From: Corallococcus macrosporus
Lineage (GTDB): Bacteria > Myxococcota > Myxococcia > Myxococcales > Myxococcaceae
Direction of reading: 5' to 3'
Length of the DNA stretch: 64,000 nucleotides
Assembly: GCF_017302985.1 (NCBI RefSeq)
Contig: NZ_JAFIMU010000012.1
Coordinates: 1-64,000, forward strand
Below the pieces are notes generated by a model, which was not told the DNA's origin, searched no databases, and saw only the letters and a program-made list of their open reading frames with translations. Below, piece by piece: positions 6,401 to 30,400 of this stretch; the first letter of the stretch is position 1; each line of letters starts with the position of its first letter. A program made the position numbers and the translations under genes.

Positions 6401-9400
6401 GCTGCGCGAGCACGTCCCTGCCCTGCTCAACATGTACGGCCCCACCGAGACGACGGTGTGGTCGTCCATGCATCGCGTGGAGACGGACACCGCTGGAACG
6501 GTGTCGCTGGGACGGCCGCTGGCGAACACCGGGCTCTACATCCTGGACGCCCGGCTGCAACCGATGCCGGTCGGTGTTCCCGGGGAGCTGTTCATCGGCG
6601 GTGAAGGCGTGGTGCGCGGTTACCTGGGCCGCCCGGACCTGACGGCCGAGCGCTTCGTGCCGGACGCGTTCCGCGACGAGCCGGGCACGCGGATGTACCG
6701 CACGGGGGACCGGGCGCGCTGGCTCCCGGACGGGACGCTGGAGTTCCTGGGCCGCATCGACCACCAGGTGAAGCTGCGGGGCTTCCGCATCGAACCCGGT
6801 GAAATCGACGCCGCGCTCCGCACGCACCCCGAGGTCCGCGAGGCCGTGGTCACCGTGCGCGAGGACGTGCCCGGCGAACAGCGCCTCGTGGCCTACGTCG
6901 TCCCCGCCTCCGTGGACGCGGACGCCCTGCGTGAACACCTGCGCTCCCGCCTCCCCGGCTACATGGTGCCCTCGGCCTTCGTCGGCCTGGGCGCCCTGCC
7001 CCTCACGCCCAACGGCAAGGTGGATCGCCGCGCCCTGCCCGCCCCCACGGCCGTCACCACCACCGGGGATGCCGGCCCCCTGACGCCGCTCCAGGCCCAG
7101 GTGGCCGCGCTGTTCCAGGACGTGCTGCACGTGGAGCGCGTGGGCGCGCACGATGACTTCTTCGCGCTCGGTGGGCATTCGCTGCTGGCCACCCAGCTCA
7201 TCACCCGCGTGAGCGCTCGGTTCGGCGTGGACCTGCCCGTGCGTGCGCTGTTCGACGCGCCCACCGTGGCGCGGCTCGCGGAGCGCATCGAGGCGCTTCC
7301 GTCGCGGCATCCCGCCACGCCCATCCCCACCGTGCCCCGCGACGGCGCGCTGCCGCTGTCGCTCGCGCAGCAGCGCATGTGGTTCCTGGACCGGCTGGAG
7401 CCCGGTCAGGCCCTCTACAACATCCCCCTGGCCCTGCGGCTCTCCGGCCCCCTGGACGTGGAGGTGCTGCGCCGCACCTTCGCGGAGGTCGTCCGCCGGC
7501 ACGAACCGCTGCGCACGACGTTCGAGGAGCGCGACGGTCAGCCGCTCCAGCGCATCCACGCTCCGCCCGCGGAGTGGCCGCTCCCGGTGGAGACGCTCCC
7601 CGAAGGTGACGCGCGCGAGGCCACCCTGCGCCAGCGCATGCGCGAGGACGCGACCTGGCCGTTCGACCTGGGCACCGGTCCGCTGATGCGCACGCGCCTG
7701 CTGCGGCTGGCCCCGGACGAACACGTGCTGCTGCTGTGCATGCACCACATCGTCACGGATGGCTGGTCCATGGGCGTGCTCGTGCACGAGGTGGGCAGCC
7801 TCTACTCGGCGCTCGCGGCGGGACAGCCGTCGCCGCTGCCGGCGCTGGAGGTGCAGGCCGCGGACTTCGCCGCATGGCAGCGCCAGCAGGAGGACTCCGA
7901 TACCTCGCGGGCCAACCTGGGCGCGCTGCGCGAGTCCCTGAAGGACGTGCCCGTGCTCACCCTGCCCGCCGCGCAGGGGCTGCCCGGGACGCGGTCGACG
8001 CGCGGGGACACGCACGTCTTCACGCTGCCCGCGTCGCTGGTGCGCTCGCTGGAGCAGGTGGGCCGCGCGCATGACGCCACGCTGTTCATGGTGCTGATGG
8101 CCGGCTACCAGGCCGTGCTGTCGCGCTACTCCGGGCAGGACGACTTCGCCGTGGGCACGCCCGTGGCGCACCGCACCCGGCCGGAGCTGGAGCCCCTCAT
8201 CGGCGTGTTCCTCAACACGCTGGTGCTGCGCGCGCGCCTGGACGGAGCCCCCCGCTTCTCCCAGCTCCTGGAGCGCGTGCGCGAGTCCTCCCTGGCCGCG
8301 TTCGCGCACCAGGACGTGCCCTACGAGCAGCTCGTGGAGGCGGTGGCGCAGGCGCGCGGCGGCGACCGGACCGCGCTGTTCCAGGTGATGTTCGTGCTGC
8401 AGAACGCGCCGCTGTCCGCACCGTCCCTGCCCGGCGTCCGCGTGGAGCGGCTGCCCACGTCGACGGAAACCGCGCGCTTCGACCTCATCCTGTCGCTGAC
8501 CGCGCGGGACGGCGGCCTGGAGGGGGCGCTCGAATACAGCCGCGACCTCTTCTCCGCGGACGCGGCGGCGCGGTTCGCCACCCACTTCCGGGTGCTGCTG
8601 GAGGCCGTGGCTCGCGAGGCCTCGACGCCTGTGCGCCTGCTGCCCCTGATGGCCGAGGCGGAGCGTGAGCAGGTGCTCAACGACTTCAGCGCGCCGGACG
8701 TCCGGCCGCTGCGCGAGCCGCCCCTGCTGGACCTCTTCGACATGCAGGTCCGTCGCGCCCCCGACGCCATCGCCGTGGAGCACGAGGGCCGCACGCTCAC
8801 GTACGCGGCGCTGGATGCGCGCGCGAACCAGTTGGCGCGGCACCTGCTGGCCCGGGGGCTCCAGCCCGAGGGCCGCGTGGGCCTGTGCGTGGAGCGCGGC
8901 CTGGACCTCGTCGTGGGCATGCTCGGCATCCTCAAGGCGGGCGGCGCTTACGTGCCGTTGGATCCGGCCTATCCGGCGTCGCGCCTGATGTTCATGTTCC
9001 AGGACGCGGGGCTGTCGCTGGTGGTGACGGAGCGCTCGCTGCCCGAGGCCGTCCAGGACCGGGCCTGGCCCACGGTGAGCCTGGAGGCGGACCGGGAGGA
9101 GCTCGAGCGCCACGACACGTCCTCGCCGGGCGTGCGGCTGCTGCCGAACCAGCTGATCTACGTGCTGTACACGTCGGGCTCCACGGGCACGCCCAAGGGC
9201 GTGGGCGTCACGTACGCGTCCGTCGTGCACGTGGTGCGGGACACGAACTACCTCCAGGTCACTCCGGACGACCGGATGGTGCAGGGCGGGACGCCGTCGT
9301 TCGACATCGCGACGTTCGAGGTCTGGGGCGCGCTGCTCAACGGCGCGCGGCTCGTCATCCTGCCTCGCGACGTGACGCTGGCTCCGGCGCAGCTTGCGCG

Positions 9401-12400
9401 CGTGCTGCGTGAGACGGGCGCCACCGTGGCCATGTTCCCCACGGCCCTGTTCCACGTCGTGGCGCGAGAGGTCCCCGACGCGTTCGCCACGATGCGGGCG
9501 GTCTACTTCGCGGGTGAGGCCGCGAACGCGGATGCGATCCGCGCCGTGCTGCGCGCCGGACCGCCGGTGCAGCTGGTGAACTTCTATGGCCCCACGGAGA
9601 TCACCGTGGGCGCCAGCACGCAGGTCCTCAACGGCCTGTCCGAGCACGTGACCATCGTGCCCATCGGCCGGCCGATGACGCGCTGCCGGACGTACGTGCT
9701 GGATGCGCACCTGCAGCCCGTGCCCGTGGGCATCCCGGGCGAGCTGTACCTGGGCGGCGACGGCGTGAGCCGGGGCTACCTGGGCCGCCCCGCGCTGACG
9801 GCCGAGCGCTTCGTGCCCCTGCCCTTCGGTGACGTGCCCGGGGCGCGGCTGTACCGCACGGGCGACCGCGTGCGCTGGATGGCGGACGGCACGCTGGAGT
9901 TCCTGGGCCGTATGGACACGCAGGTGAAGCTGCGCGGCTTCCGCATCGAGCTGGGCGAGGTGGAGGCCATCATCCGTCAGCACCCGTCGGTGAAGGCCTC
10001 GGCGGCCGGGGTGCTGGACGATGGTGTGGGCGATCCGCGCCTGGTGGCGTGGTACGTGCCGAAGGCCCCGCTGGACGCGGCGGAGCTGCGAGCCTTCGTG
10101 TCCGAACGGCTGCCCGCGCCGCTGGTGCCCGGTGCGTTCGTGCAACTGGACGCCCTTCCGCTCACGCCCGTGGGCAAGGTGGACCGCAAGGCCCTGCCCC
10201 CTCCGGATGCGCGCTCGGTCGCGGCGGCAGCGCCGGAGAAGCCCGTACGGATGACGCCCTTCCAGCAGCGCATCGCGGATCTGTTCCGCGACGTGCTGCG
10301 CGTGCCGCAGGTGGGCGTGCACGATGACTTCTTCGCGCTGGGCGGCCACTCGCTGCTGGCCACGCGGCTGCTGTCGCGCGTGCGTTCCACCTTCCAGGTG
10401 GAGCTGCCCCTGCGCGGCCTCTTCGAGGGCGCCACCGTCGCCGGTGTCACCGAGCAGGTGGAGGCGCAGCTCCTCTCCCGCTCCGACCTGCCGCGCGTGC
10501 CCGCGATCCGCAAGGTCGCCCGTGATGGTGAGCTGCCCCTGTCGTTCGCACAGCAGCGGCTGTGGCTGGTGGAACAGCTCCAGCCCGGTGCCACGCCGTA
10601 CATCCTGCTGGGCGCGGTGCGGCTGGAGGGCGCGCTGGACGCGGAGGCCCTGCGCCGCGCGCTGGAGCTGCTCGTCGAACGTCACGAGGCGCTCCGCACC
10701 ACGTTCGCCCTGAAGGGCCGTGACCCCGTCCAGATCATCCAGCCCACGCCCCACCTGGCCCTGCCCCTGACGGACCTGGGCGGCGTGCCGGCGGCGGACC
10801 GCGAGGCGGAGGTGCAGCGGCTGGCGCGCGAGGAGGCCGGCCGGCCCTTCGACCTGGGCACGGGACCGCTGCTGCGCACCCGGCTGCTGCGGCTGACCCC
10901 GTCGCACCACGTGTTGCTGCTGGGCATGCACCACGTCGTCTCCGACGGCTGGTCGCTGGGCGTGATGGTGCGTGAGGTGGCCACGGCCTACGCGGCCTTT
11001 GCTTCCGGCGCGGCGCCGTCCCTGCCCGCCCTGCCCATCCAGTACGCGGACTTCGCGGCGTGGCAGCGCGGCTGGCTCCAGGGCGACGTGCTCGCCGATG
11101 AAGTCGCGTGGTGGAAGGAACAACTCGCCGGTGCGCCTCGGGTCCTGGACCTGCCCACCGACAAGCCGCGTCCCACGACGCGGTCCCCGCACGGTGCGCT
11201 GCTTCCCGTGCACGTGCCTCGCGACCTGACGGACCGTCTGGCGGGGCTTGCCCGCGCCGAAGGTGCCACGCCGTTCATGGCGCTGCTGGCCGTGTGGCAG
11301 GTGCTGCTGTCGCGCTACAGCCGGCAGGAGGACCTGCTCGTCGGCGCTCCCATCGCGGGCCGCACGCATGGCGACGTGGAGGGGCTGGTCGGCTTCTTCG
11401 TCAACACGCTGGCGCTGCGGGCGCACGTCCGTCCGGAGGCGTCGTACCGCACACTGCTGGGACAGGTGCGGGACACGACGCTCGCGGCCTACGAGCACCA
11501 GGACCTGCCGTTCGAGAAGCTGGTGGAGGAACTCCAGGTGCCTCGCGACCTGGGCCGCACGCCGCTGGTGCAGGCCGTGTTCGCGCTCCAGAACGCTCCG
11601 GCCGGGGCGCTTGAAGCGCCGGGCTTGAGGATGGAGTTGCTGGAGGTGGACGCGGGCACGGCGCACTTCGACCTGGGCCTGCTGCTCACGGAGACGCCGG
11701 ACGGACTGCGCGGCTCCATCGAGTACAGCACCGACCTCTTCGAGCGCGACACCATTGCCCGGATCTCCGGACACCTGCGCGTGCTGCTGGAGGCCGCCGT
11801 CGCCGGCCCGGACGTGCCGGTCTCCGCGCTGCCGTGGCTCACGCCGGAGGAGCGCCAGCAGGTGCTCGTCGCGTGGAACGACACCGCGCTTCCCTACCCC
11901 TCCGACAGCACCGTCGCGGCGCGCTTCGAGCTTCATGCCGCGCGGCAGCCGGACGCCATCGCGGTGGAGGACGGGGATGAGCGGCTGACGTACTCGCAGC
12001 TGGATGCCCGGGCGAATCAGCTTGCGCATGTCCTGCGGGCCAAGGGCGTAGGGCCGGACGTGCCGGTGGCGCTGTGCCTGGAGCGCTCCGTGGGCTTCGT
12101 CGTCACGGTGCTCGGCATCCTCAAGGCGGGCGGCGCTTACGTGCCGCTGGATGCTTCGTATCCCGCGCAGCGGCTGAGCTTCATGCTGGAGGATGCGCGT
12201 CCGCACCTGCTCGTCACCACGCGCGAGCTGCGCGGACGGCTGCACCTGCCGGACGCGTCCCTGCCCTGTCTGTTCCTGGAGGAGCCGTCGCTGGCGGATC
12301 AGCCCGCCACCGCGCCGGAGTCCGGCGTGGGGCCGCGACACCTGGCCTACGTCATCTTCACCTCCGGCAGCGGCGGACGGCCCAAGGGCGTGGGCATCGA

Positions 12401-15400
12401 GCAGCGCGGTCTGCTGCGCCTGATGCACTCGGCGCCTTACACGCGCTACGGCGCTCGTGACACGGGGCTGCTCTTCGCGCCTGTGTCCTTCGACGGCTCC
12501 GTGCTGGAGCTGTGGACGCCGCTGCTGCATGGCGGCCGGCTCGTCGTCTTCCCGGGCAACGTGCCCGCGGGGGACATGGACACCCTGGCCCGCGTGGTGG
12601 AGCGCCACGGCGTCACGTTCGTCCACCTGCCCTCCGGCCTCTTCTCGCAGTTGATGGAGCACCGGCCGGACATCCTCGGGCGGCTGCGGGAGCTGCACGC
12701 GGGCGGCGACATCGTCTCCGTGCCGCACGTGCGCAAGGCCGTGGAGTCGCTGGGCATCCCCTTCACCAACGCCTACGGCCCCACGGAATGCTCCGTCGTC
12801 GCCACCGCCTTCACGGTGGAGCGGCCGGAGCAGGTGTCGCTGTCGGTGCCCATTGGCGCGCCGCTCTCCAACACGTCGGTGTACGTGCTGGACGCGCGGC
12901 TGCACCCGGTGCCGGTGGGCGTGCCGGGTGAGCTGTTCCTCGGCGGTGACGGCGTGGCGCGCGGCTACGTGTCTCGGCCGGACCTCACGGCGGAGCGCTT
13001 CGTTCCGGACGCGCACGGCGCGACTCCGGGCGCGCGGCTGTACCGCACGGGCGACCTGGTCCGCTGGCGCGCGGACGGGACGCTGGAGTTCCTGGGCCGC
13101 GCGGACCACCAGGTGAAGGTGCGCGGCTTCCGCATCGAGTTGGCGGAGGTGGAGGCCGCCCTGCGCGACCTGCCCGCGGTGCAGGAGGCCGCGGTGGTGG
13201 TGCGCGAGGACGTGGCCGGGGACAAGCGGCTGGTCGCCTACGCGATGCCCCGCATGGGGCAGGTGCTGGAGGCGCAGGCCATGCGCACGGCGCTGCGGCA
13301 GCGGCTGCCGGAGTACATGGTCCCGTCGGTGTTCGTGACGCTGGCCACCCTGCCCCTCAACCCCAGCGGCAAGGTGGACCGCAAGGCGCTGCCCGCGCCG
13401 GACGCCGCGTCCACCGGACGGCAGGGCCGGTTCGTGGAGCCCTCGCACCCGCTGGAGCAGCGGCTGGCGCCTGTCTTCGCTCGCGAGCTGGGCACGGACA
13501 AGGTGGGCGCGCAGGACCACCTCTTCGAGGACCTGGGCGCCACGTCCCTGACCGTGGTGCGCCTGGCCGCGCGCCTGCGCGAGGAGCTCCAGCGCGAGGT
13601 GCCCGTGGTGTGGCTGTTCGAGCACCCCACGCTCGAAGGCATCGTCCAGCGCCTGGAGCGCGAATCGCAGGGCCCGGGAATTGCCCCGCCCGCGTCCCCG
13701 GCTCCGGGGCATCGTCCTCGCGAGGCCCCGAAGGCGGGCGCTTCCGGTGGCATCGCCATCATCGGCATGGCGGGCCGCTTCCCCGGCGCGATGACGGTGG
13801 CGGAGTTCTGGAGCAACCTGCGCGGGGGCGTGGAGTCCATCTCGCGCTTCTCGCCGGAGGAGCTGGAGCACATGCCCGCCCTGCCGGAGGGCGTGGAGCT
13901 GTGGCACCACCCGGCCTTCGTGCCGGCCGCGGGCGTCATCCACGGCGTGGACAAGTTCGACCACGCCTTCTTCGACATGAGCCTGCGCGAGGCGCAGTTC
14001 ACGGATCCGCAGCAGCGGCTGTTCCTCCAGACGGCGTGGGCCGCGCTGGAGGACTCGGGGATTGATCCGGACCGCTTCCCGGGCGCCATCTCGCTGTACG
14101 CGGGGGCCACGGGCTCCGGGTACACGGACGCCGTGCGCCAGGCGATGCCGCTGGACGCGGCGTCGTTCATGGAGCTGCACGGCACCGCCACGCACGAGAG
14201 CCTGGCGACGAAGACGTCCTTCAAGCTGGGGCTCACGGGTGAGAGCACGCTGCTCTACACCGCGTGCTCCACGGGTCTGGTGGCGGTGCACCTGGCCTGC
14301 CAGAGCCTGCGCACGGGCCAGTCCGACGTGGCGCTCGCGGGCGCGACGCGCCTGTCCGTGCCGCAGCGCACGGGCTACGTGCACCAGGAGGGGCTCATCT
14401 TCTCGCCGGACGGCCACTGCCGCGCGTTCGACGCGAAGGCGGGCGGCACGCTGTCCGGTAACGGCGTGGGCGCGGTGGTGCTCAAGCGCCTGGAGGACGC
14501 GGTGCGGGATGGGGATGCCATCTACGCCGTCATCCGGGGCTCGGCGCTCAACAACGACGGCCGGAACAAGTCCGGCTTCACCGCGCCCAGCGTGCAGGGC
14601 CAGGCCGCCGTCGTGTCCCAGGCGCTGGCCAACGCGGGCGTGTCCCCGGAGGCCGTGGGCTACGTGGAGGCCCACGGCACCGCGACGCCGCTGGGCGACC
14701 CGATTGAAGTGGCGGCGCTGACTCGCGCATACGGCCTGGGCGCCGAGCGCCGCGGGAGCATCGCGCTGGCGTCGCTGAAGACGAACGTGGGCCACCTGGA
14801 CACGGTCGCGGGCCTCGCGGGGCTCATGAAGGCCGCGCTGTCGCTGCACCACGGGGAGATTCCTCCCAGCCTCCACTTCGAGCGGCCCAATCCGCAGATC
14901 GACTTCGACGCGGGGCCGTTCTTCGTCAACACCACCTTGCGGTCGTGGCCCCGGGGCGAGACGCCCCGCTTCGCCGCGGTCAGCTCCTTCGGCATTGGCG
15001 GTACCAATGCCCACGCGGTCCTCGAGGAAGCCCCCATGCGGCAGAGTGGTTCCACCACGCGGTCCCACCAGGTCGTCGTGCTTTCCGCGCGCTCGCAGGA
15101 GGCGTTGCAGGCGGCGGCGCGGCAACTGGACGCGCACGTGGCGGAGGGCATGGACGCGCAGGCGCTGGCGGACCTGGCCTTCACGCACGCCGTGGGGCGC
15201 AAGGCGTTCGAGTTCCGCAAGGCGCTGGTGGTGAAGGACGCGGCGGACCTGGCGCGGCAGCTGGGCAAGCCGGTGATTGCCGTCAAAGGCGAGAAGCGCG
15301 CGCCGCGCGTGGCGTTCGTGTTCTCCGGCCAGGGCGCGCAGCGGGTCGCGATGGGGCGTGAGCTGGCGGAGGCGTCGCCCCGGTTCCGCGCGCACCTGGA

Positions 15401-18400
15401 CGCGTGCCTCGCGCTGATGGAGGCGCCGCTGCGGGCGCGGGTGTCGAAGCTGCTGTCGCCGGAGGCCGGCGCGGAGGCGGAGGCCTCGGCGGCGCTGGCG
15501 GACACGCGCGTGGCGCTGCCCGCGTTGTTCAGCGTGCAGGTGTCGCTGGCTCGGCTGTGGCAGGACCTGGGCGTGACGCCCTACGCAGTGATGGGGCACA
15601 GCTTCGGGGAGTACGCGGCGGCGTGTGTCGCGGGCGTGCTGTCCCTGGAGGACGCGATGCGCCTCACGGTGGCGCGCGGGGAGCTGATGCACCGCATGCC
15701 GCCGGGGGCGATGCTCGCGGTGGCGCTGCCTGTCGCGCAGGTGCAGCCGCTGCTGTCGGGCCGGCTGGAGCTGGCGGCGGTGAACGCGCCGGACCGCTGC
15801 GTGGTGTCCGGGCCGGTGGAGGAAGTGGAGCGGCTGGAGGCGGAGCTGAAGGGCCGCAAGGCCGGAGCGGTGCGCATGCCCGCGCCGCACGCGTTCCACT
15901 CGGTGGACGTGGAGCCGGTGATGCCGGAGCTGGCCCGGGTGGTGGGGACGCTGCGCCGGTCGGAGCCGACGGTGCGTTACGTGTCCAGCCTCACGGGGAC
16001 GGTGGCGCAGCCGGGGCAGCTCGCGGATCCGCGCTACTGGACGGAGCAGATGCGCAGGCCGGTGCACTTCACCCGCGCGGTGGAGACGCTCCAGGAGGAA
16101 GGCTGCGCGGTGCTGCTGGAGGTGGGCCCCGGTCAGGACGTGACGCCGCTGGTGCGCGCGAACCTGACGCGCGAGGAGAACGGCCGCAGCCGCGTCCAGG
16201 CGCTGGCGTCGCTGCGCGTGAGCGGGGCGACGACGGAGCAGATGGGCTGGCTCCAGGCCGTGGGAGAGCTGTGGACCGCGGGCGTCGCGGTGGACTGGAA
16301 CGCGTTTTACGCGCACGAGCAGCGCCTGCGGATGCACCTGCCCACGTACGTCTTCCAGGAGAAGACGGTCTGGGTGGAAGCGAAGGCACAAGCTCCTGCG
16401 TCTGGCCGCATTACCACGGGCACGCGTTCTCCAGCGCAGGTGCATGGCGCTGATGGAGGAGGAACCGACGGGCTGTCCAGCACCGCGCATCTGAGCGGGA
16501 CAGGCCGGGTGGCACCGCCCACCGACAACCGCATGGCAGGGCCGTCGTCTTCGCTAATGGGCGCTGCGTCCGCGTCCTTCGACAGCGGGCCGCGGGCCGC
16601 GACCCAGACGCCGGCCGCGTCCTTCGACCCCTACGCGGCGATACAGCAGCCGGCCGCGTCCTTCGACCCCTACGCGGCGATGCAGACGGCGGCCTCGTCC
16701 TTCGATGCAACTGGCCGGGTAGCGCCCCATGCCGGAGCGACGTCCTTCGACAGCGGCCCTGGCGCCGCGACCCAGACGACCGCGTCCTTCAACAACGGGC
16801 CCTACGCCGCGACCCAGACGGGGTCTTCGTCCTTCGGAAGCACCCACGGGGCGACCCAGACCGCGTTCTCCGGCACGGGTCGCGTGGCGACGCTGACCGA
16901 GACCTCCTCCTTCGACGGACCTCCGTCGACGCCTTCCACCTCCGCCTCCCAGCCTCAGACCGGCGCCGCACCCTTCGACAGGTCCCAGATGCCCACGCGC
17001 ACCGACGCCGCAGACTTCGACGAGCCTGTCTCCGCGGCCCCGGCCTCCTCGAAGCCTCCCGTCCGCGACGATGCTCCTCGCGGTGAGGTGGAGGAACGCG
17101 TGGCCGCGCTGTGGCGCGAGCGCCTGGGCCTGGAGTTCGTCGGCCGCAACGACGACTTCCTGGAGATTGGCGGCAACTCGCTGACGGCCGCCCAGCTCCT
17201 CAACCAGGTGCGTGACGCCTTCGGCGTGAACCTGCCGCTCGCGGCCCTCTTCGAGGCTCCCACCGTCGCGGGCATCGCGGAGCGCCTGGTGCCCCTGCTG
17301 CGCCAGGCCCCGCAGGCCCCCGTCTCCGTGGAGCTCCCCCTGGTGCCGCTGCCTCGCACCGGCGAGCTGCCCCTGTCCTTCGTGCAGGAGCGCGTCTGGC
17401 GCCTGGAGCAGCACCTGCCCGGCCAGTCCGCGTACAACATCCCGTTCGTCCTGCGGCTCGAAGGCGACGTGAACGCCGACGTGCTGGAGCGCGGCATCCA
17501 GGAGATCGTCCAGCGCCACGAAGCACTGCGCACCACCTACGACGTCGTGGACGGCCGCCCCGTGCAGCGCTTCCACGCGCACATGCGCGTCCCGCTCACC
17601 CGCGTGGAGCTGCGCGGCCCCATGGAGACGCGCGAACCCGAGGCCATGCGGCTCGCTCGCGAGGACGCCGCCAGGCCCTACGACCTCGTCAACGGCCCCG
17701 TCGTGCGCACCACCCTGGTCCGCCTGGATACGCGGCTGCACATGCTGATGGGCGGCATCCACCACATCGTCAGCGACACGCTCTCCATCGCGCTCTTCGT
17801 CCAGGAGCTGGTCCACCTCTACAACGCGTTCCTCCAGGGACGTCCGTCTCCCCTGCCCCCGCTGCCCCTGCAGTACGCGGACTTCGGTGCGTGGCAGCGC
17901 CACAGCATCGCGGGCAACCGGCTGCCGGAGCAGGACCAGGGCTGGCGGCAGCGGCTGGCCGGCATGCCGCGCAAGCTGGACCTGCCCACGGACCGCCCGC
18001 GCCCCCCGGAGAGCCCGCTCACCTCCGCGCGCATGAGCGTGGACTTCCCGCCCACGCTCGCCCGCGACCTCACGGCCTTCACGCGCCGCGAGGGCTTCAC
18101 CGGCTACATGACCGTGCTCGCCGCGTGGCAGGCGCTGTTGCACCGCTACAGCGGGCAGACGGACGTCATCGTCGGCACGCCCATCGCCAACCGCACGCGG
18201 CCGGAGCTGCTGCCGCTCATCGGCTACGTGGCGCACTCGGCGGCGTTCCGCACGCGCTTCACGGACGGGCTCACGTTCCGCGACCTGCTCGCCCAGGTGC
18301 GTGACGAGGTCGCCGACGCGCAGACGCGTCCCGACGTTCCCTTCGAGTACCTGGTGGAAGCCCTCATCCCGGGCAAGGACATCGGCCGCGGCCGCATGAC

Positions 18401-21400
18401 GGACTCCGTGTTCGTCTACCACACGGGCGCGGGCGCCGGCGCGACGACGCTGGAGCTCACCGGCCTGCGCGGCTCACTGGTGGAGGTGCCGGGCACGCCC
18501 GTGCAGTGGGGCGCCACCCTGGCGGACCTCACGCTCGTGCTCTCCGAGGCCCCCGGCCGCGTCCACGGCGCGCTGGAGTACGCGACGGAGCTGTTCGACG
18601 CGTCCACCGTGTCGCGGCTCGTGGCGCACTTCGAGGTGTTGCTGGCCGCCGCGCTCGCCCGGCCCGAGACGCCCGTCTCCCACCTGCCCCTGGCCACGGA
18701 GGCCGAGCGCCGCGCCTGGCCCGCGCCCCGGGCCTCGCAAGGCTTCACCTCCGTGCCCGCCCTCCTCGCGGAGCGGCGCGCGCGCCACGCGGACGCCACC
18801 GCCGTCTCGCGCGGGGACACGCACTGGACCTGGGCCGAGCTGGGCTCGCGCGCGGACGCGCTGGCCTCGCGCTTGAAGACCCTGGGCGTGACGGCCGGGA
18901 CGCCGGTGGCCGTGTGCCTGCGCTCGTCGCCGGAGAAGCTGGCCGCGCTGTGGGGCGTGCTGGCCGCCGGTGGCGCGGGCATCGCGCTGGGCCCCGCGGA
19001 CCTGGGGCAGCTGCCCGTCTACGCGCTGGAAGGCGCCCGCGTGCCGGTGCTCGTCACCACGCGCGCGCTGGTGACCTCGGTGCGCGTGGAGGCCTCGCGC
19101 GTCGTGTACGTGGAGGACGTGGAGGCTTCGGGCGCACCCGCCCACACGGCCGGTGACGCGCAGGCCCTGGCGTGGCTGCTGCCCACGGGTTCGGGCCAGC
19201 CCGCGTGGGCGCTGGGCCACCGTGAGCTGTCGGAGTTCTTCACCGGCCTGGACGCGCGGCTGTCCCCGCCGGATGGCGGCGCGTGGCTGTCCGCGAGCGA
19301 AGCGTCCGCGGATCGGCCGGAGCTCGAAGCCCTGTGGGCGCTCACGCGCGGGCTGCGCGTGGTGTACCCGCCGGAGCGCATCACCGCGGGGCTGGTGAGC
19401 CTGGGCGGCGGCGGGCCTCGCGCGAAGGCGATGGACCTGAGCCTCATCTACTTCGCCAACGACGAGGACACGCTCCAGGGCCCGAAGTACGAGCTGCTGC
19501 TGGAGGGCGCGAAGTTCGCGGACGCGAACGGCTTCTCCGCCGTGTGGACGCCGGAGCGGCACTTCCACTCCTTCGGCGGTCTGTACCCGCAGCCGGCCGT
19601 GGTGTCGGCGGGTCTGGCCACCATCACGAAGCACCTGCACCTGCGCTCCGGCAGCGTGGTGCTGCCGCTGCATGATCCGCTGCTCATCGCGGAGCAGTGG
19701 TCCGTGGTGGACAACCTGTCCCAGGGCCGCGTGGGCCTGTCCGTGGCCACGGGCTGGCACACGCAGGACTTCACCTTCGCGCCGGCCAACTTCGAGAAGC
19801 GCCGCGAGATCCTCGTGGAGAAGCTGGCCACGCTGCGCGCGCTGTGGCGCGGAGAGCGGTTCAAGCGCCCCGGCGGCGCGGGCACCACGATGGAAGCGGT
19901 GCTGCGGCCCAAGCCCGTGCAGAAGGAGCTGCCGGTGTGGCTCACCGCCACGTCCAACCCGGAGACCTTCCGCATGGCGGGTGAGCTGGGCGCGGGCGTG
20001 CTCACCGGCCTGCTGTCGCACTCGCTGGAGGAGATGAAGCCGAAGATCGCCCTGTACCGTGAGGCGTGGCGCCGCAATGGCCACCCGGGGCGCGGCCACA
20101 TCACCTGCATGCTGCACACGTACCTGGGCGACGACGACCAGGAGGTGCTGCGCCTCGTGCGCAAGCCGCTGCTCGCGTACTTCCGCAGCTCGGTGGACAT
20201 CGTCACGTCGCTGCTGCTCACCCAGGGCTACCAGGGCGAGATCAAGAAGCTGTCCGCGGAGGACATCGACGCGCTGCTGGAGCACACGTTCGAGAACCAC
20301 GCCAAGACGACGGGCCTCGTGGGCACGGTGGACGGAGCCCTCAAGCGGCTGCGCGACGTGCGCGCGGCGGACGTGGACGAGGTGGCGGCCCTCATCGACT
20401 TCGGGCTCGACACGCCGGTGGTGCTGGAAGGACTGCGCCGGCTGGCCGTGGTGCGCGAGCGCATGGACGCGGAGGCCGCCGTCCGCCAGGAGCAGGTGCT
20501 GGTGGAGGCGGAGGCCGGCGTGGAAGGCCTGCTGGAGCTGGCGCGCGCGTCCGGCGCGGTGCTGGTGCACACGTCGGCCCGCCTGGCGCGCACGCTGAGC
20601 GAGCTGTCCGGTGCGCGTGAGTCGCTGGCCCACGTGGGCGCCCTGGTGGTGGAGGGCGCGTCCGTGGAGCTGGGCGCGGCGCTGCACCGGGCCGCGGGCG
20701 TGGAGGTGTGGCTGTCCGGTGACGCCCAGGAGGGCGCGCTCCTGCCGCGCACGCCGCGCGAGCGCATCCCCGCGAACCTCCAGACGTGGGTGCTGGACAC
20801 GGCGGGACAGCCCGTCCCCGCGGGCGTGGTGGGCGAGCTGGCCCTCGCGGGTGCGGGTCTTCCCACCGCGCTGTGGCGCGCGGGCGATGAGGAGCACCGC
20901 CGCCTGGTGCCGCACCCCCGAGAGGCCGCGGCCCGGCTGTACCGCACGGGCCGCCACGCCCGGCTGCGCGCGGATGGCCGCGTGGAGCCCGTGGCGTCGC
21001 CGTCGCGCCTGCCGCCTCCGCCCGTGGCGCGTCCCGCCGTCGTGGAGGCACCGCGCCCCGTGGCGCCCGTCGCCGCGCGTCCCGCCGCCCCGGTCGTGAA
21101 CGAGGGCCCGCCGCCCATCCCGCGCGTGGGCCGCGACCGGCCGCTGCCCCTGTCCTTCGCGCAGCAGCGCCTCTGGTACCTCCAGCAGTTGGAGCCCGGA
21201 AGCGGCACGTACAACAACCCGACCCTCTTCCGCCTCGTCGGGGACCTGGACGCGGACGCGCTCCAGGCCGCGCTGGACGCGCTGGTGGCCCGGCATGAGG
21301 TGCTGCGCAGCACGTACACGCTGGACGGCGATCGCGCGGTGCAGGTCATCCACCCGCCGCGCGGCATGGCGCTCCAGCGCCGGGACGTCCCGGGCGACAC

Positions 21401-24400
21401 GCCCGAGGCCCGCGAAGCGGAGATGCAGCGCTTCTGCAAGGCGTACGCGCTGCTGCCCTTCGACCTGGAGCAGGGCGTGCTGCGCGCGACGCTGCTGCGC
21501 CTGGAGCCCCAGGTGCATGTGCTGGCGCTCATCTTCCACCACGCGGTATCCGACGCGTGGTGCAACATGGTCATCGCGCACGACCTGACCGCGAACTACG
21601 CGGCGTTCCACGCGGGCCAGCCGTCACCCCTGCCGGAGCTGCCGGTGCAGTACGCGGACTACGCCGTGTGGCAGCGCGAGTGGCTGGGCGGCGGCGAGCT
21701 GGAGTCGCAGCTCGCCTGGTGGAAGCAGCAACTGGCCGGGGCGCCCAACCTGGAGCTGCCCACGGACCGGCCGCGTCCCGCCGTCATCTCCTTCGCGGGC
21801 GCGCGGCACCGCTTCACGCTCCCGCCAGAGGTCGTCACGCCGCTGCTCGCGCTGGGCCGCCGCAACGGCGCCACCACGTTCATGGTGATGATGGCGCTCT
21901 TCCAGACGGTGCTGTCGCGCTACTCCGGCCAGGAGGACTTCGTCGTCGGCACGCCCATCGCGGGCCGCACGCGTCCGGAGGTCGAGTGGCTGATGGGGTG
22001 CTTCATCAACACCCTGCCCTTCCGCTCGAAGCTGTCCGGCCTGCCGTCCTTCGTGGAGCTGCTGGGCCGCGTGCGCGCCCAGGCACTGGAGGCCTACGCG
22101 CGCCAGGACGCCCCGTTCGAGCGCGTGCTGGACGTGCTCCAGTTGCCGCGCGACCTGAGCCGCACGCCGCTGTTCCAGGTGAGCATCAACGTGGTCAACA
22201 CGCCGGAGGCCAAGGCGCGCCCCGCCGGCCTGGAGCTGAGCGGCGTGGACGTGCCGTCCGATACGTCAAAGTTCGACCTGGGCCTGGAGGTGCTGGAGGG
22301 CCGCGACGGCTTCACCTGCCGCCTGGAGTACTCCACCGCCCTGTTCGACGCGGCCACCATCGAGCGCCTGGCGGAGCACCTGGTGGGCCTGGCGCGCGAG
22401 ATCGTCGCCAGCCCGCGGACGCCCGTCGCCCTGCTGCCGCTCTTGGGTGACGCCGAGCGCCAGCAGGTGCTGGGCGCCTGGAACGACACGTTCCGCGACT
22501 ACCCGCACGACGCCTGCATCCAGGACCTCTTCGCCCGTCAGGCCGCGCTGCGCCCGGACGCGGTGGCGCTGGAGTTCGGCAAAGAGCGCCTGACGTACGC
22601 GCAGCTGGACGCGCGCACGAACCAGTGGGCGCACCTGCTGCGCGAGCACGGCGTGGGCCCGGACGTGCTGGTGGCGGTCTGCATGGACCGCTCCGTGGAG
22701 CTCATCGTCTCCCTGCTGGCCATCCTCAAGGCGGGCGGCGCGTACCTGCCGCTGGATGCGTCCTACCCGGCGTCGCGCCTGACCGCGATGCTGGAGGACG
22801 CGCCCGCGAAGCTGCTGCTCACCACGCGCAAGACGCGCGAGTCGCTGCCCCTGCCGGCGGAGCTGCCGTCCCTCTTCGTGGAGGAGGCGCCCGTCGCTGG
22901 CCTGCCCACGGCGCCCGTCGTCGCGGGGACGCACTCGCGCCACCTGGCCTACGTGGACTTCACGTCCGGCAGCACCGGGCGCCCCAAGGGCGTCGCGGTG
23001 GAGCACCGCTCCGTGATGCGCCTGCTGCATCACCCGAGGTTCGGGAACCTGGGGCCGGACGAGACCTTCCTGCTCGTCGCGCCCATCTCCTTCGACCCGA
23101 CGACGCTGGAGATCTGGGGCCCGCTCGCGCACGGCGGCAAGCTGGCCGTGTTCCCGCCCACGTCGCCGTCGGACGTGGACCTGCTGGCCCAGGTCATCCA
23201 GCGCCACGGCGTCACCACGCTGCTGCTCACGTCGGGCCTCTTCACGCAGGTGGTGGACGTGAAGCTGGAGGCGCTGCGCGGCGTGAAGCGGGTGCTCGTG
23301 GGCGGCGACGTGGTGTCGCCCACGCACGTGCGCCGGGTGTTGGAGTCGGACCTGGGCACGGCGGTCGTCGCCTGCTACGGCCCGACGGAGTCGACCCTCT
23401 TCGCGTCCACCTACCCCGTGCCGGACGCGGCGTCGGTGGGCGGAACGATGCCCATTGGACGGCCCATCGCGCAGACGCAGCTCTACGTGCTGGACCGGCA
23501 CGGGCAGCCGGTGCCCGCGGGCATCCCCGGCGAGCTGTACGTCGGCGGTGACGGCCTTGCTCGCGGCTACATCTCGCGGCCGGACCTCACCGCGGAGCGC
23601 TTCGTCCCGCACCCCTTCGCCTCCCGTCCGGGTGAGCGCCTGTACCGCACGGGCGACCTCGCGCGGTGGCGCCGCGACGGCGTGATGGACTTCCTGGGCC
23701 GCGCCGACAACCAGGTGAAGGTGCGCGGCTTCCGCATCGAACTGCCGGAGGTGGAGGCCGCGCTGCGCGCCCACCCGGACGTGCGCGAGGCCGTGGTCGT
23801 GGTGCGCGAGGACGCGCCCGGCGACAAGCGGCTGGTGGCCTACGTCGTCCCTCACGGCGCGGAGCCGGGCCAGGGCTCGCTGCGCGACTTCCTGCGGCAG
23901 CGGCTGCCGGAGTACATGCTGCCGTCCGCGTTCGTCGCGCTGGCGGCGATGCCGCTGACGTCGAACGCGAAGGTGGACCGCAAGGCCCTCCCCGCCCCCG
24001 GAGGCCAGCGCGCGTCCCGCAGGGAGTACGCCGCGCCGCGCACCCGCCTGGAGCGGACGCTGGCGGAGGTGCTGGGCCAGGTGCTGCGCGTGGAGCGCGT
24101 GGGCCTGGACGACAACTTCTTCGAGCTGGGCGGCGACTCCATCATCAGCCTCCAGGTCGTCGCGAAGGCGCGGCAGGCCGGCGTGCAGTTGCTGGTGAAG
24201 GACCTCTTCCAGCACCCCACCCTGGGCGCGCTGGCGGCCGTGGCCCGTGAGAGCGCCACCAGCCTCGCGGAGCAGGGCCCGGTGGTGGGTGACGTGCCGC
24301 TCACCGCCATCCAGGCGGACTTCCTGGAGCGCGAGCCGACGCACGCGCACCACTTCAACCACGCCCTGCTGCTGCGGGCGCGCCAGCCGCTGGTGCCGGC

Positions 24401-27400
24401 GCACCTGGAGCAGGCCCTCCAGGCGCTCGGCGTCCACCACGACGCCCTGCGCATGAAGTACGTCCGGAACGCGGACGGCGCGTGGCGCCAGCGCGACCCG
24501 AGCCCCGACGAGGCCGCGCTCACGCTGCGCCAGGTGGACCTCTCCGTGCTTCCGCCCGAGGCGCGTCTGGCCGCGATGGAGCAGGAGGCCACGCGCGCCC
24601 AGTCGACCTTCGACCTGTCCGCGCCGCCGCTCGTGCGCCCCGTGCTCTTCCACTTCGGGCCGGGCGAGGAGCAGCGCCTGCTGCTGGTCATCCACCACCT
24701 GGTGGTGGACACCGTGTCGTGGCGGATCCTCATGGAGGATCTGGAGACGGTCTACCGCCAGGTCCAGTCCGGCCAGGTCCCCACCCTGCCGGCGAAGACG
24801 ACGTCCTTCCTGTCCTGGGCCCGCCGGCTGGAGACGCACGCGCTGTCGGACGTGCTCGGCTCCGAGCTGGCCTTCTGGCGGGACTCGGTGCGCGGTGACG
24901 TGGCCGCGCTGCCCACGGACGGTCCAGGCCCGCACACCTACGCGTCGCACCGTTCAGTGTTCGCCGAGCTGGACGCGGAGGAGACGCGGCTGCTGCTCCA
25001 GGAGACGCCCATCGCGTGGCGCGCGCGCATCGACGACGTGCTGCTGACGGCGCTCGCGCAGGCGATTGGCGAGTGGACGGGCAAGCCGGATGTCCTCATC
25101 GACATGGAGGGCCACGGCCGCGAGGAGCTGTTCTCGGACGCGGACGTGTCCCGCACCGTGGGCTGGTTCACGTCCCTCACGCCGGCCCTGCTGCGGCTGC
25201 CGGCGCAAGGCTCGCTGGGCGACCGGCTGCGCGCCGTGCGCGACACGCTGAGCGCGTGGCCGAACAAGGGCATCGGCTTCGGGCTCCTGCGCCACCTGGG
25301 GCCGCCGGAGGCTCGGGCCGCGCTGACCGCGCTGCCGCGGGCACAGGTGTCCTTCAACTACCTGGGACAGCTGGACGGCGCGACGGGCGCGAGCACCCTC
25401 TTCGCCCTGAGCGACGAGGGCGTGGGGCCCAACGTGGCGCCCCAGGCCGTGCACCCGCATGTGCTGACGGTGGAGGGCGCGGTGTCCGGCGGACAGCTTC
25501 GCCTGAACTTCGGCTACAGCACCCTGCTGCACCACGAGGAGACGGTGCGCGCGGTGTCCCAGCGCTTCCTGTCCACGCTGCGGGAGCTCATCGCCCAGCG
25601 CCACTCGGAGGACTCGCGCCGGCGGACGCCGAGCGACTTCCCGCTGGCGCGCCTGTCCCAGGCCGCGCTGGACGCGGTGCTGGCGGCGCAGGGGCCCACG
25701 GTGGAGGACCTCTTCCCGCTCTCCGCGCTGCAGGAGGGCATGCTCTTCCACGCCCTCCAGGATCCGCACGCGGGCTACTACTTCGAGCACACCGCGTGGT
25801 CCATCCACTCGGACGTGGACATCTCGCTGTTCCAGCGGACGTGGCAGACAGCGGTGGACCGCAACCCCATCCTGCGCACCGCCTTCGTGTCCCAGGACCT
25901 GGCGTCGCCGCTGCAAGCGGTGCACTCGCACGTGGCGCTGCCTTTCGAGGTCCATGACTGGCGCCACCTGCCGGAGGACGCGAAGAAGGCCGGGCTGGAG
26001 CGGCTCATCGTCGTGGACCGCGCGCGCGGCTTCGACGTGTCGCGCGCGCCGCTGAGCCGGATGACGGCGGTGCGGCTGGCGGACGCGCAGTGGCGCTTCA
26101 TCTGGAGCCACCACCACCTGCTGTTCGACGGCTGGAGCCTGGGCCTGTTCTTCCAGGAGGTCTTCGCCATCTACGACGCCCTGCGCGCCGGGACGCCGCT
26201 GCCTCCCTCCGGCCGGCCGCCGTATCGCGACTACATCGCGTGGCTGGGACAGCGCGACCTCGTGGAGGACGAGCGCTTCTGGCGCAACCAGCTCCAGGGC
26301 CTGACGGCGCCCACGCCCGTGCCCGCCATGCGCCCCGTGGCCACGGTCGCCTCGGGCACCGTGAACCAGCCCATCCTCGGGGTGACGATTCCGGAGGCGC
26401 GCAGCGCGGCGCTGGAGTCCTTCGCCAAGCGGCATCAGCTCACGCTCAACACCCTGGCGCAGGCCGCCTGGTCGCTGGTGCTGGCGCGCCACGCCGACAC
26501 GCGCGACGTCATCTTCGGCACCACGCTGGCGGGACGTCCGCCGGAGCTGGCGGGCTCGGAGGCCATGCTGGGCCTGCTCATCACCACGCTGCCGGTCCGC
26601 ATCGCGCTGCCGGATGACAGCGCGCCCGTGCTGCCCTGGCTCAAGGACCTCCAGGTGAAGCTGCTGGGCATCCAGCAGCACCAGCACACGCCGCTCGTCA
26701 CCGCGCACGGGTGGAGTGACATCCCCCGAGGCGTGCCGCTCTTCCAGTCGCTGCTCGTCTTCGAGAACTTCCCCTTCGACGAATCGCTGCTGCGCCGCTC
26801 CACCGCGCTGGACCTGCGCGACCTGCAGATGGGCGAGAGCATCAACTACCCGCTGGCGGCGACGGTGCTCCCGGGCCGTGAACTCCAGCTGCACCTGGCC
26901 TACGACGAGAACCGCTGCGACGCGGAGGCCGTGCAGCGCGTGCTGGGCCAGTGGCACCAGGCGCTGGAGACCCTCATCCAGCCCGAGGCCCGGCTGGCCG
27001 ACGTGTCCCTCCTCCCGGCCGAGGACCGCGCGTGGCTGCTGCGCACCGGCCGCGGTGACGTCGCGGAGTTCGAGCGCGAAGCCACCGTGCACGCGCGCTT
27101 CGAGCGGCAGGCCGCCGCGACGCCGGACGCGGATGCCGTGGTGTTCGGAGAGACGACGCTCAGCTACCGGCAGCTCGACACGCGCGCCAACCAGCTCGCG
27201 TGGCACCTGCGCTCGCTGGGCGTGGGCCCTGAAGTCAGGGTGGGCCTGTGCCTGGAGCGCTCGACGGAGGCCATCGTCGCGCTGCTGGCGGTGCTCAAGG
27301 CCGGTGGCGCCTTCGTGCCTTTGGATCCGTCCGCACCCGCCGCGCGCAAGTCGTTCCTGCTCAAGGACAGCGGCGCGTCCGTGCTCGTGACGACGCAGGC

Positions 27401-30400
27401 CCAGGAAGAAGCGTGGCGTCCGGACGTGCCCCACGTGGTGCGGGTGGACGACGAAGCGGTCCGGCAGTCGGACCGGTTGGAGAGCCCACCGGCACTGACC
27501 GGGTCGGGGAACCTCGCCTACGTCATCTACACCTCGGGCTCCACGGGTACGCCCAAGGGCGTGATGGTGCAGCACCGCTCCGTGCTCAACCTGCACGGCG
27601 CGCTGACGCGGAGCATCTACGCGGGCCTGCCGCGCGGCCAGCGCATCACCGTGAACGCGCCGCTGTACTTCGACGCGTCCATCGAACAGGTGCTCCAGCT
27701 GCTGGATGGCCACTGCCTGTGCATCGTCCCGGAGGACGTGCGCGTGGATCCGGAGGCGATGCTCGCGTGGCTGGAGCGTCAGCGCATCGACGCGCTGGAC
27801 TGCACGCCGTCGCAGCTCAAGCTCCTGCTGTCCGCGGGGTTGCTGGAGCGCACCCACGTCCCTGCCCTGCTCTCCGTGGGCGGCGAGGCGATGGACGAGG
27901 TGACGTGGAGGCAGCTCGCCGCGACGAAGCGCACGCGCGCGTTCAACGGCTACGGCCCCACGGAGGTCACCGTGGACGCGACGACCTGGGCCCTCCAGGA
28001 CGCGTCCCAGCCGGTGCCCGTCATCGGGCGGCCGGTGGACAACCTGCGCGCCTACGTGCTCGACGCGAAGCTGCAGCTGGTGCCCATCGGGACGCCGGGC
28101 GAGCTGTGCTTCGCCGGTGAAGGCGTCACGCGCGGCTACCTGGGCCAGCCCTCGCTCACCGCGGAGCGCTTCCTGCCGGATCCGTTCAGCGACGCGCCCG
28201 GCGCGCGCCTCTACCGCACGGGCGACAAGGCCCGCTGGCGCGAGGACGGCACGCTGGAGTTCATGGGCCGCCTGGACTTCCAGGTGAAGCTGCGCGGCTA
28301 CCGCATCGAGCTGGGTGAAATCGAGGCCACGCTGCGCGCGCACCCGGGCATCCGGGACGCGGTGGCGCAGGTCCTCGGCGACCGACTCATCGCGTGGGTC
28401 GCTCCGCGGGTGGACACGTCGCACCTGGGCGAGCACGTGCGCCGCCACCTGCCGGAGTACATGGTGCCCGCCGCTTTCGTCGCGCTGGACGCCCTGCCCC
28501 TGACGCCCAACGGCAAGGTGGACCGCAAGGCGCTGCCCACGCCGGACGTCGCGCCGGCCACCGAGCGCGTCATCGAACCGCCCGCGACGCCGACGGAAGC
28601 AGCGCTCGCCCCCCTGTGGGCCGAGGTGCTGCGCGTCCCCGCCGTGGGCCGCCACGACGGCTTCTTCGAGCTGGGCGGCCACTCGCTGCTGGCCACGCAG
28701 TTGGTGTCGCGCATGCGCACGCACTTTGGGGTGGAGCTGCCCCTGCGCGCGCTCCTGGAGGGCCCCACGGTCGCGGCGCTGGCCGAGCGCATCGACGCGC
28801 TCCGGCAGGCCCAGCCGCAGGCCACCGAGGCCGCGGCATCCCCCACGTCCGCCCTGCCCGCGCTGGTCCGCGCGGAGCGGCCGGAGGTGCTGCCCCTGTC
28901 GTTCGCGCAGCACCGGCTGTGGTTCATCGAGCAGCTGGGCACGGCGGGCAACGCCTACAGCCTCCCGAGCATCCTGGAGCTGGACGGCACGCTGGACATC
29001 ATCGTGATGCTGGCCGCGTTCGACGAACTGGTTCGCCGCCACGAAGCGCTGCGCACCACGTTCCGCTCGCACGAGGGCATGCCGTCGCAGGTCATCCACC
29101 CGCCCTTCCCCATGCCGCTGCGCAACGTGGACCTGTCCGCGCTGCCGACGGCGGAGGCTCGCGAGGAGGAGGCGTCGCGGCTGGCGCTGGAGGAGACGCG
29201 CACCCCGTTCGACCTGGAGCAGGGGCCGCTGTTCCGCGGGCTCCTCATGAAGCTGGGGCCCACGAAGCACCTGCTGCTGCTCAACACGCACCACATCATC
29301 TCCGACGGCTGGTCCACGGGCGTGCTGGTGCGGGAGATGGGGGCGCTCTACGCGGCCTTCTCCGCGGAGCAGCCCTCGCCGCTGCCGGAGCTGCCGGTGC
29401 AGGCCGCCGACCACGCGCTGTGGCAGCGCGGCTGGCTCCAGGGTGAAGTCCTGGAGTCGCAGGTCGAGTACTGGCGCGGGAAGCTGGAGGGCGCAGCGCC
29501 CTACCTGGAGCTACCCACGGACCACCCGCGTCCGGCCCGCCAGTCCTTCCGCGCGGGCGTGCAGCCCATGACGCTGCCGCGCGAGCTGAGCGAGGCGCTG
29601 GAGGCCCTGGCGAAGCAGACGGCCTCCACGCCCTTCATGGTGCTGCTGGCGGCGTTCCAGACGCTGCTGCACCGGTACGCGGGCCAGGAGGACGTGCTCG
29701 TGGGCTCGCCCATCGCGGGCCGCCGTCACGCGGAGGCCGAGGACCTCATCGGCTACTTCGCGAACACGGTGGTGCTGCGCACGCGGGTCCGCGACACGCT
29801 GCGCTTCCGCGAGCTGCTGGACGACGTGCGCGCCACCACGCTGGGCGCGTACGAGCACCAGGACCTGCCGTTCGAGAAGCTGGTGGAGGTGCTCCACCCG
29901 GAGCGCGACCTGGGCCGCACGCCGCTGTTCCAGGTGACCTTCACGCTGCAGAACTCGCCCATGCCGGAGCTGTCCCTGCCCGGCCTGACGCTGCGCCCCC
30001 GCGAGGCCAACCCGGAGACCATCCTCTTCGACCTCCAGTGCATCCTGATGCGGACGCCGGAAGGCTTCGACGGCGCGCTCGTCTTCAACCAGGACCTGTT
30101 CGAGCCGGCCACGGTGGCCGGCATGGCCGAGCAACTGCGCGTGCTGGTGGAGGCCGCCGTCCGCGCGCCGGACACGCGGCTGTCGCAGCTGCCGTGGCTC
30201 ACGGAGGCGGAGCGTCAGCGGCTGCTCGTCGGGTGGAACGACACGGCCCGGGACTACCCGCGCGACGCGTCCGTGGCCGCCCTCTTCGCGGAGCAGGCCG
30301 CGCGCACGCCGGACGCCATCGCGCTGAAGGCCGGCGCGGAGACGCGCACGTACGCGGCGCTGGACCGCGCGTCGAACCAGCTTGCGCACCACCTGCGGCG

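Follow-up and report, generated by a model that had tools for sequence, protein, structure and literature searches.

A flavin monooxygenase embedded in a gutted adenylation domain behind a polyketide synthase carrier, a probable oxygenation unit of giant myxobacterial synthetases

The window, by which we mean the whole stretch of 64,000 nucleotides that was analysed, comes from Corallococcus macrosporus (contig NZ_JAFIMU010000012.1, positions 1 to 64,000), whose genome is available as 9.8 Mb in 17 contigs. The open reading frames and a domain scan revealed a giant gene on the forward strand (1722..39200, 12,492 codons) that encodes a hybrid of a nonribosomal peptide synthetase (NRPS) and a polyketide synthase (PKS). 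The N-terminal part of its product comprises FAAL-T, three C-A-T modules, KS-AT-T and an unusual block, C1-A*-MOX-A*, in which C1 has a condensation fold, MOX is a luciferase-like flavin monooxygenase and A* denotes the two parts of a degenerate adenylation domain. The rest consists of C2-A-T, an E domain that was read from its motifs (24321-25598, HHLVVDT), four further C-A-T modules and a tail that resembles TE by eye, the tail not having been covered by the profile scan.

The cassette and its surroundings lie on the forward strand as follows. The A-Asub-T of the NRPS module ahead of the PKS module, which would supply the amino acid to be extended, occupies 11922..13643. It is followed by KS (13734..14891), in which the Cys motif TACST and the His motifs EAHGT and NVGHL were recognized by eye, by AT (15309..16181), with the motifs GHSFGE and HAFH, which presumably mark a malonyl type, and by the PKS carrier T (17058..17279, GGNSL). 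The linker between AT and T (16182-17057) is a low-complexity segment of about 290 residues with degenerate repeats (ASFDPYAA, GTGRVA and ATQT) and tandem repeats at 16605-16705 and 16741-16820. C1 (17334..18698) carries HHIVSDT and IGYVAHS. The N-terminal part of A* (18756..19436; domain match 18765-19385) covers the A core up to the A4 position without the A3 and A4 motifs, MOX occupies 19437..20456, and the C-terminal part of A* (20457..20993; domain match 20769-20987) lacks A5, has a degenerate A7 and stops ahead of A8. Then come C2 (21111..22448), an ordinary condensation domain with HHAVSDAW and MGCFINTLPFR, and the A-Asub-T of the acceptor module (22527..24236), whose T lies at 24018-24236. 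The scan found neither Asub nor T between MOX and C2. An initial annotation of this DNA, made from the sequence alone, had given the order as KS-AT-T, C, A*, MOX, A*, C over the interval from C1 to the start of C2, with no T domain following, and both points were borne out.

MOX belongs to the MupA/Atu3671 family TIGR04020, scoring 482.1 bits against a cut-off of 244.45 over positions 1-340 of the 341 in the model, and it also matches PF00296. Matches to the A core flank it on either side in the domain scan and in the predicted fold, and it is inserted after the A4 and before the A5 position, where complete relatives have it too. To compare the host domains, we divided the relatives into type a, in which Asub stands behind the second A half (68 stretches), and type b, which resembles the window (50 stretches: the window, L033-L052, L084, L085 and L103-L129), and searched both with patterns for the A-domain motifs. 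In type a versus type b, A3 was found in 67/68 versus 0/50, A4 in 67/68 versus 0/50, A5 in 68/68 versus 0/50, A6 in 64/68 versus 34/50, A7 (TGD) in 68/68 versus 7/50, A8 in 68/68 versus 0/50 and A10 in 60/68 versus 0/50. The loss of A3, A8 and A10 described in the initial annotation was thus confirmed, while that of A7 holds in part, and the loss is wider than had been stated, extending to A4 and A5. Because five motifs are missing from every type-b stretch and Asub is absent, A* should, on sequence grounds, not adenylate. MOX itself is well preserved: of its 76 positions with at least 95% fixation in type a, 64 are kept in at least 90% of the type-b rows.

The fold of the C1-A*-MOX-A* stretch, starting at residue 21 of C1, was predicted with AlphaFold2 from an alignment of 27 rows. 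The model had a mean predicted local distance difference test (pLDDT) score of 80.8 and a predicted template modelling (pTM) score of 0.65; confidence by pLDDT was lowest for blocks of MOX (around 721-733) and for certain C1 loops. The modelled C1-A* superimposed on the C-A didomain of Txo2 (Z 38.1, 797 residues, root-mean-square deviation 4.1), and the modelled A* on chain 18-426 of 1AMU, the A core of that structure (Z 36.5 over 374 residues). The predicted fold of A* is thus that of an A core from which the A-sub lobe is missing. For C1, the X domain 4TX2 was matched with a Z of 35.4. The PDB sequence closest to MOX was by far that of PuwE (6KET, E 3.7e-103; next 7.1e-21), and Foldseek also matched MOX to 6ket_A; among the 50 VIA-align rows listed there was no match to the MOX part alone.

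We then examined the two condensation domains. All 52 type-b stretches read, the window included and a few places counted twice, show HHxxxDT in C1. Among the C domains that stand after KS-AT-T and ahead of A-MOX in a set of domains from 41 sources, 23 of 24 have this T, the exception being L092 of type a. When 148 C-superfamily domains (25 C1 and 123 others), taken from the window and 51 chosen loci, were aligned, the combination of HHxxxDT with V-x-H in motif C5 was present in 25/25 C1 and in 0/123 other domains. Taken singly, the T occurred in one of the 123, namely HHLVVDT of the window's own E domain, and V-x-H in none; a His at the Asn position of C5 without the Val was seen in two, and a motif C7 ending in D in 25/25 C1 versus 2/123 others. 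C2 is canonical, with the Asn of C5 and a G, A or S in C3 in 25/25 each, whereas C1 lacks both in 25/25. In the tree of these domains, C1 formed a single clade (25 rows, support 100) apart from C2, of which 22/25 grouped together (support 96). C1 was not placed with the type-a C domains adjoining MOX, nor was it an E domain, since it lay among the C domains while the 5 E rows formed a clade of their own. Judged by these sequence features, C1 is a distinct, remodelled condensation subtype that the initial annotation had missed.

Two readings of the motif were discarded. HHxxxDT does not mark every C domain behind a PKS carrier, because L092, a complete C-A-MOX-A-T after KS-AT-T, reads HHTVSDG. 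The string LHIADDT reported by the pattern search for L130 was taken to be a misplaced match; the T occurs in 0/24 type-a C domains of the alignment, L130 included.

To see how far the cassette is distributed, we searched with A*-MOX-A* taken from the window or from its relatives, which yielded 20 regional and 80 named loci; this sampling favours type b, and the lists overlap in that some strains are present in more than one. Matches at E <= 1e-60, all types together, were found in 61/96 genomes of the family, and TIGR04020 at E <= 1e-80 in 65/195 genomes of the phylum, 61 of which belong to the window's family. The order KS-AT-T-C1-A*-MOX-A*-C2 was observed in 20/20 regional loci, which had been chosen for diversity. 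The named loci that were typed are the best 80 of at least 560 matches in the genome collection. Among them, 27 are of type b, all myxobacterial, from Corallococcus, Myxococcus, Pyxidicoccus, Archangium and a Myxococcaceae metagenome-assembled genome; KS is visible in 23 of these, and the other 4 end at a contig edge before KS. The remaining 53 are of type a and come from many phyla, with one Pyxidicoccus locus among them; 52 show Asub and T, and L176 ends at a contig edge within Asub. When loci were instead taken by their TIGR04020 score in the phylum, the 30 best were all of type a, and 20 further loci comprised 2 of type b, 14 of type a and 4 of type c, which we define as KS-AT-T, MOX and C-A-T with no A scaffold. 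The type-c loci (L090, L096, L098 and L100) are myxobacterial, and an aminotransferase stands ahead of MOX in both of those scanned with Pfam (L090 and L098). No type b was seen outside the Myxococcaceae among the typed loci, where the four matching genomes from outside the family are represented by one, G182, of type a. The arrangement is found far more often than chance would allow and is shared by many related myxobacteria, so the cassette is more likely a conserved tailoring unit than an accident of this locus. The initial annotation had noted neither its conservation in related genera nor how common such modules are in the family. We met no description of this exact cassette in the literature searched; the original paper on myxoprincomide lies outside that search and may well draw it.

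The window's own genome encodes two additional giant synthetases that contain this cassette, both among the 20 regional loci: L033, of 10,908 codons (G000:C10:399279-401525), and L034, of 9,759 codons (G000:C7:359656-361884). In one relative, at L187-L188 (G062:C1:4560001-4600000), the synthetase lies in two frames with the break between C1 and A*, which may be a real frameshift or a sequence error.

A FastTree phylogeny of 117 MOX domains (66 of type a, 47 of type b and 4 of type c) was built to reveal the descent of the cassette. All type-b MOX domains formed a single clade (47 rows, support 99), and those of type c formed a separate one (4 rows, support 100). The rows nearest to type b were complete type-a modules from myxobacteria, with L094 at a fork of support 87, followed by L083, L086, L092, L095 and L101 with L157 at a fork of support 92. 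Since type-b MOX is one clade, the loss of A function seems, as far as the sequences tell, to have happened once. The separate clades of types b and c further suggest that MOX moved behind a PKS carrier on at least two occasions, in type b together with an A scaffold and in type c without one. The cassette as a whole would have arisen once, probably from a complete C-A-MOX-A-T that lost its A-sub lobe and carrier while C1 was remodelled; the single clade is observed, and the order of events is our suggestion.

Selective constraint was estimated with our own script for the Nei-Gojobori method over 12 pairs. The ratio of nonsynonymous to synonymous substitution rates (dN/dS) was 0.10-0.40 for C1, 0.16-0.40 for the N-terminal part of A*, 0.04-0.45 for MOX, 0.07-0.37 for the C-terminal part of A* and 0.14-0.53 for C2. 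Values so far below 1 suggest that neither A* nor C1 is decaying freely. The changes in C1 are, by this measure, shared, fixed and under constraint and do not amount to decay. A sequencing error or a pseudogene was rejected as a source of the arrangement, given the recurrence of the order in independent genomes and the dN/dS values far below 1.

Taken together, we consider it likely that KS-AT-T-C1-A*-MOX-A* is a dedicated oxygenation unit in which MOX oxygenates the beta-keto chain bound to the PKS carrier, C1 does not condense and C2 does. In such a unit, KS-AT would add malonate to the aminoacyl or peptidyl chain delivered by the NRPS module ahead of it, leaving a gamma-amino-beta-keto thioester on the PKS T. 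The beta-keto group would be left unreduced because no KR, DH or ER was found in the PKS module by the domain scan; an unreduced chain on the adjacent carrier, as in MupA systems, is thus indicated by anatomy, that is, by the KS-AT-T motifs and the missing reductive domains. CorA, a Corallococcus line with the order A-T-C-A-T-KS-AT-ACP-TE, works in vitro as a dipeptide-plus-malonate line (PMC10979478, in excerpt), which supports the formation of a beta-keto peptidyl chain by such an NRPS/PKS in this genus. MOX, carried by a gutted A core that is predicted to dock on C1 as in the usual C-A platform, would then, on the example of MupA, oxygenate the activated alpha carbon of the chain held on T, using reduced flavin provided in trans. 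We take the PKS T as the substrate carrier because MupA acts on a beta-keto thioester bound to an acyl carrier protein (ACP) and because the MOX domains of PuwE and type c follow a PKS carrier. The initial annotation had put the substrate most likely on the carrier at about 17178; no carrier with a fitting beta-keto substrate lies closer than this T, so that placement is probably right in the main. C1 would make no peptide bond, and may receive or position the carrier and help to process the oxygenated chain, and C2, with its canonical motifs, would couple the oxidized chain with the amino acid carried by the following T. The final unit could be an alpha-hydroxy-beta-ketone or an alpha-keto amide shorter by one carbon.

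Several observations weigh against this interpretation. Both His and the Asp of HHxxxD are retained in 25/25 C1, so condensation by C1 is compatible with its sequence. The dN of the N-terminal part of A* exceeds that of MOX in 12/12 pairs, and the dN of the C-terminal part does so in 11/12, which points to a weaker constraint on A*, whose role may be structural only, as a scaffold of the kind that the initial annotation supposed. Type-b MOX differs from the complete relatives at 12 of the 76 otherwise conserved positions, and the residues at five positions, 80 D, 144 R, 157 R, 249 F and 312 D in MOX numbering, are fixed in type b and rare in type a; the substrate or the reaction may therefore differ from that of MupA or MtaG. 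In addition, no flavin reductase was recognized among the ten flanking open reading frames scanned, although none was found in the MupA cluster either, as far as the excerpted account goes (PMC10953402).

The role of C1 deserves separate consideration. The canonical features are those of C2, and C1 lacks an acceptor carrier, which is why we favour a role other than condensation for C1; it may serve as a platform like the X domain, a gate like KS0 or a catalyst resembling the E domain. A bolder version, which we put forward tentatively and regard as doubtful, is that C1 represents a new functional class, a non-condensing, E-like partner right behind the carrier (T-C1 like T-E). It would use HHxxxD in a rebuilt pocket, with Thr for Gly and His for the Asn of C5, for acid/base chemistry, and together with MOX it would turn the beta-keto thioester into an alpha-keto unit, possibly minus one carbon, ahead of C2. 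If this were true, MOX and C1 would form an NRPS equivalent of the MupA/KS0 bimodule and offer a way to alpha-keto amide warheads.

Among the alternatives, the one that survives best holds that MOX acts after transfer, on the peptide at the carrier following C2-A (24018-24236), and oxidizes the malonate-derived methylene of a beta-keto amide. That carrier is the next in line, MOX sits between both carriers in the sequence, and the methylene remains acidic within a beta-keto amide. However, MupA requires the thioester on its own upstream ACP, and the excerpts of PMC10953402 report hydroxylation on the next ACP as unobserved; moreover, MOX precedes the condensing C domain in the type-b and type-c loci examined. 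We therefore think action after transfer unlikely. Still less probable is that C1 condenses and C2 is accessory, MOX acting on a chain that C1 has already joined to the downstream aminoacyl carrier: C1 keeps HHxxxD and adjoins the donor T, but the canonical C5 Asn and C3 residue belong to C2 in all 25 rows and to C1 in none, and it is C2 that lies immediately 5' of the acceptor A-T. That C1 and A*-MOX-A* are the inert relic of a dead module, skipped by the assembly line, agrees with the motif loss in A* and the missing carrier and is nevertheless hardly credible given a dN/dS below 0.5 for C1, A* and MOX in 12/12 pairs, the retention of most conserved MOX positions and the maintenance of the cassette in species of at least four named genera.

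If oxygenation on the PKS carrier is the right reading, a dead loading domain became the holder of an oxygenase, and a condensation domain was rebuilt as its non-condensing partner, in several myxobacterial genera. HHxxxDT plus VxH, after KS-AT-T and ahead of A*-MOX, would then be a signature predicting an oxidized malonate unit in peptides, and C1-A* should not be counted as an extra amino acid in collinear predictions.

The genes on both sides of the synthetase probably connect it with a known pathway. In the window it is flanked by an HSP70 gene (27-1583) and a radical-SAM (UPF0004/TRAM) gene (41429-42814), and no tailoring or resistance gene was recognized among the ten flanking open reading frames. 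One single-contig genome from the Myxococcus/Pyxidicoccus group (G077) has the same flanks, with an HSP70 86.6% and a radical-SAM protein 87.2% identical to those of the window, and between them a synthetase of 15,473 codons with the same cassette. Its domains run as FAAL-T, six C-A-T, KS-AT-T, the cassette and five C-A-T, counting the one after C2. The window synthetase is therefore a positional ortholog of the Myxococcus-group giant synthetase, from which it differs in module number. In KS, AT and MOX, the G077 synthetase shows 99% identity to that of M. xanthus AM003, a strain that has a second cassette in another synthetase (L122).

The Myxococcus-group synthetase is probably that of myxoprincomide, whose gene is given as mxan_3779 (PMC11619377) within the cluster MXAN_3763-3797 (PMC4902038) and whose formula is C45H76N10O16 (PMC4752588), each source being available in excerpt. 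We chose the G077/AM003 synthetase as MXAN_3779 because it is a giant NRPS-PKS in which NRPS modules precede the PKS module, so the match was made by layout and not by sequence; any likeness of the window to MXAN_3779 would thus consist of flank synteny and the cassette, by way of G077 and AM003. In the excerpted text of PMC12224551, the myxoprincomide cluster is called conserved in Myxococcus and Pyxidicoccus and not in Corallococcus. Extracted by hand, the code of the A domain ahead of KS reads approximately DGLHHGAVVK for the window and DGMHHVGIIK for the orthologs of the Myxococcus group. These codes were matched to no substrate and therefore lend no support to a Val-derived unit. Myxoprincomide may contain a 2-oxo-beta-leucine, for which we found no confirmation in the literature searched. 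It would agree with an alpha-keto unit formed at this step with one carbon lost, and serves here only as a hint for the bolder reading of C1.

Finally, we compared the cassette with known systems, for which the cited sources were available in part. The MOx of MtaG/MelG oxidizes the Gly of its own module's A domain (PMC11342130), and the contrast with these systems drawn in the initial annotation holds. They share with the window a MOX inside an A domain, at the same A4-A5 site in type-a relatives, MtaG and MelG themselves being compared by description. Type a, however, has a complete A with A-sub and carrier, whereas the window sequence offers neither an A domain fit to adenylate nor a carrier of its own, and its PKS carrier lies upstream. 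The glycopeptide NRPS X domain has the C fold, does not condense and serves an oxygenase (PMC8949500, PMC11546977). C1 resembles it in fold, while partnership with an oxygenase is established for the X domain and a proposal for C1. The X domain has lost its catalytic motif (HRxxxDD) and recruits P450s in trans, whereas C1 keeps both His and the Asp, with only the G of HHxxxDG replaced, in 25/25 and has its oxygenase in cis. MupA hydroxylates only the ACP-bound beta-keto thioester, and not the free pantetheine, the beta-hydroxy form or the chain on the next ACP (PMC10953402). The MupA/OocM bimodules of mupirocin and oocydin thus share with the window a MupA-type MOX, a beta-keto thioester on a PKS carrier and, possibly, a non-elongating partner, KS0 (PMC10953402). 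They differ in that MupA acts in trans in a trans-AT PKS, whereas in the window MOX stands in cis and the candidate partner is a C-fold domain. In PuwE (puwainaphycin), a MOX after a PKS carrier and an aminotransferase has been proposed to help give a 3-amino-2-hydroxy acyl unit (PMC4219810). PuwE and type c resemble the window in having MOX after KS-AT-T and ahead of C-A-T, and the MOX of PuwE is the nearest PDB sequence. They differ in that an aminotransferase lies between carrier and MOX, in lacking C1 and the A scaffold and in the separate clade of type-c MOX; the Pfam scan of the window found no Aminotran_3, and T is directly followed by C1. The divergent logic that the initial annotation saw in the window is accordingly not new in itself. 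MOX action on PKS carriers is already known for MupA and proposed for PuwE, and what is new is the cassette of a dead A domain and an altered C1. If our interpretation is right, this cassette is a self-contained unit in cis that could be compared with the MupA and PuwE types.

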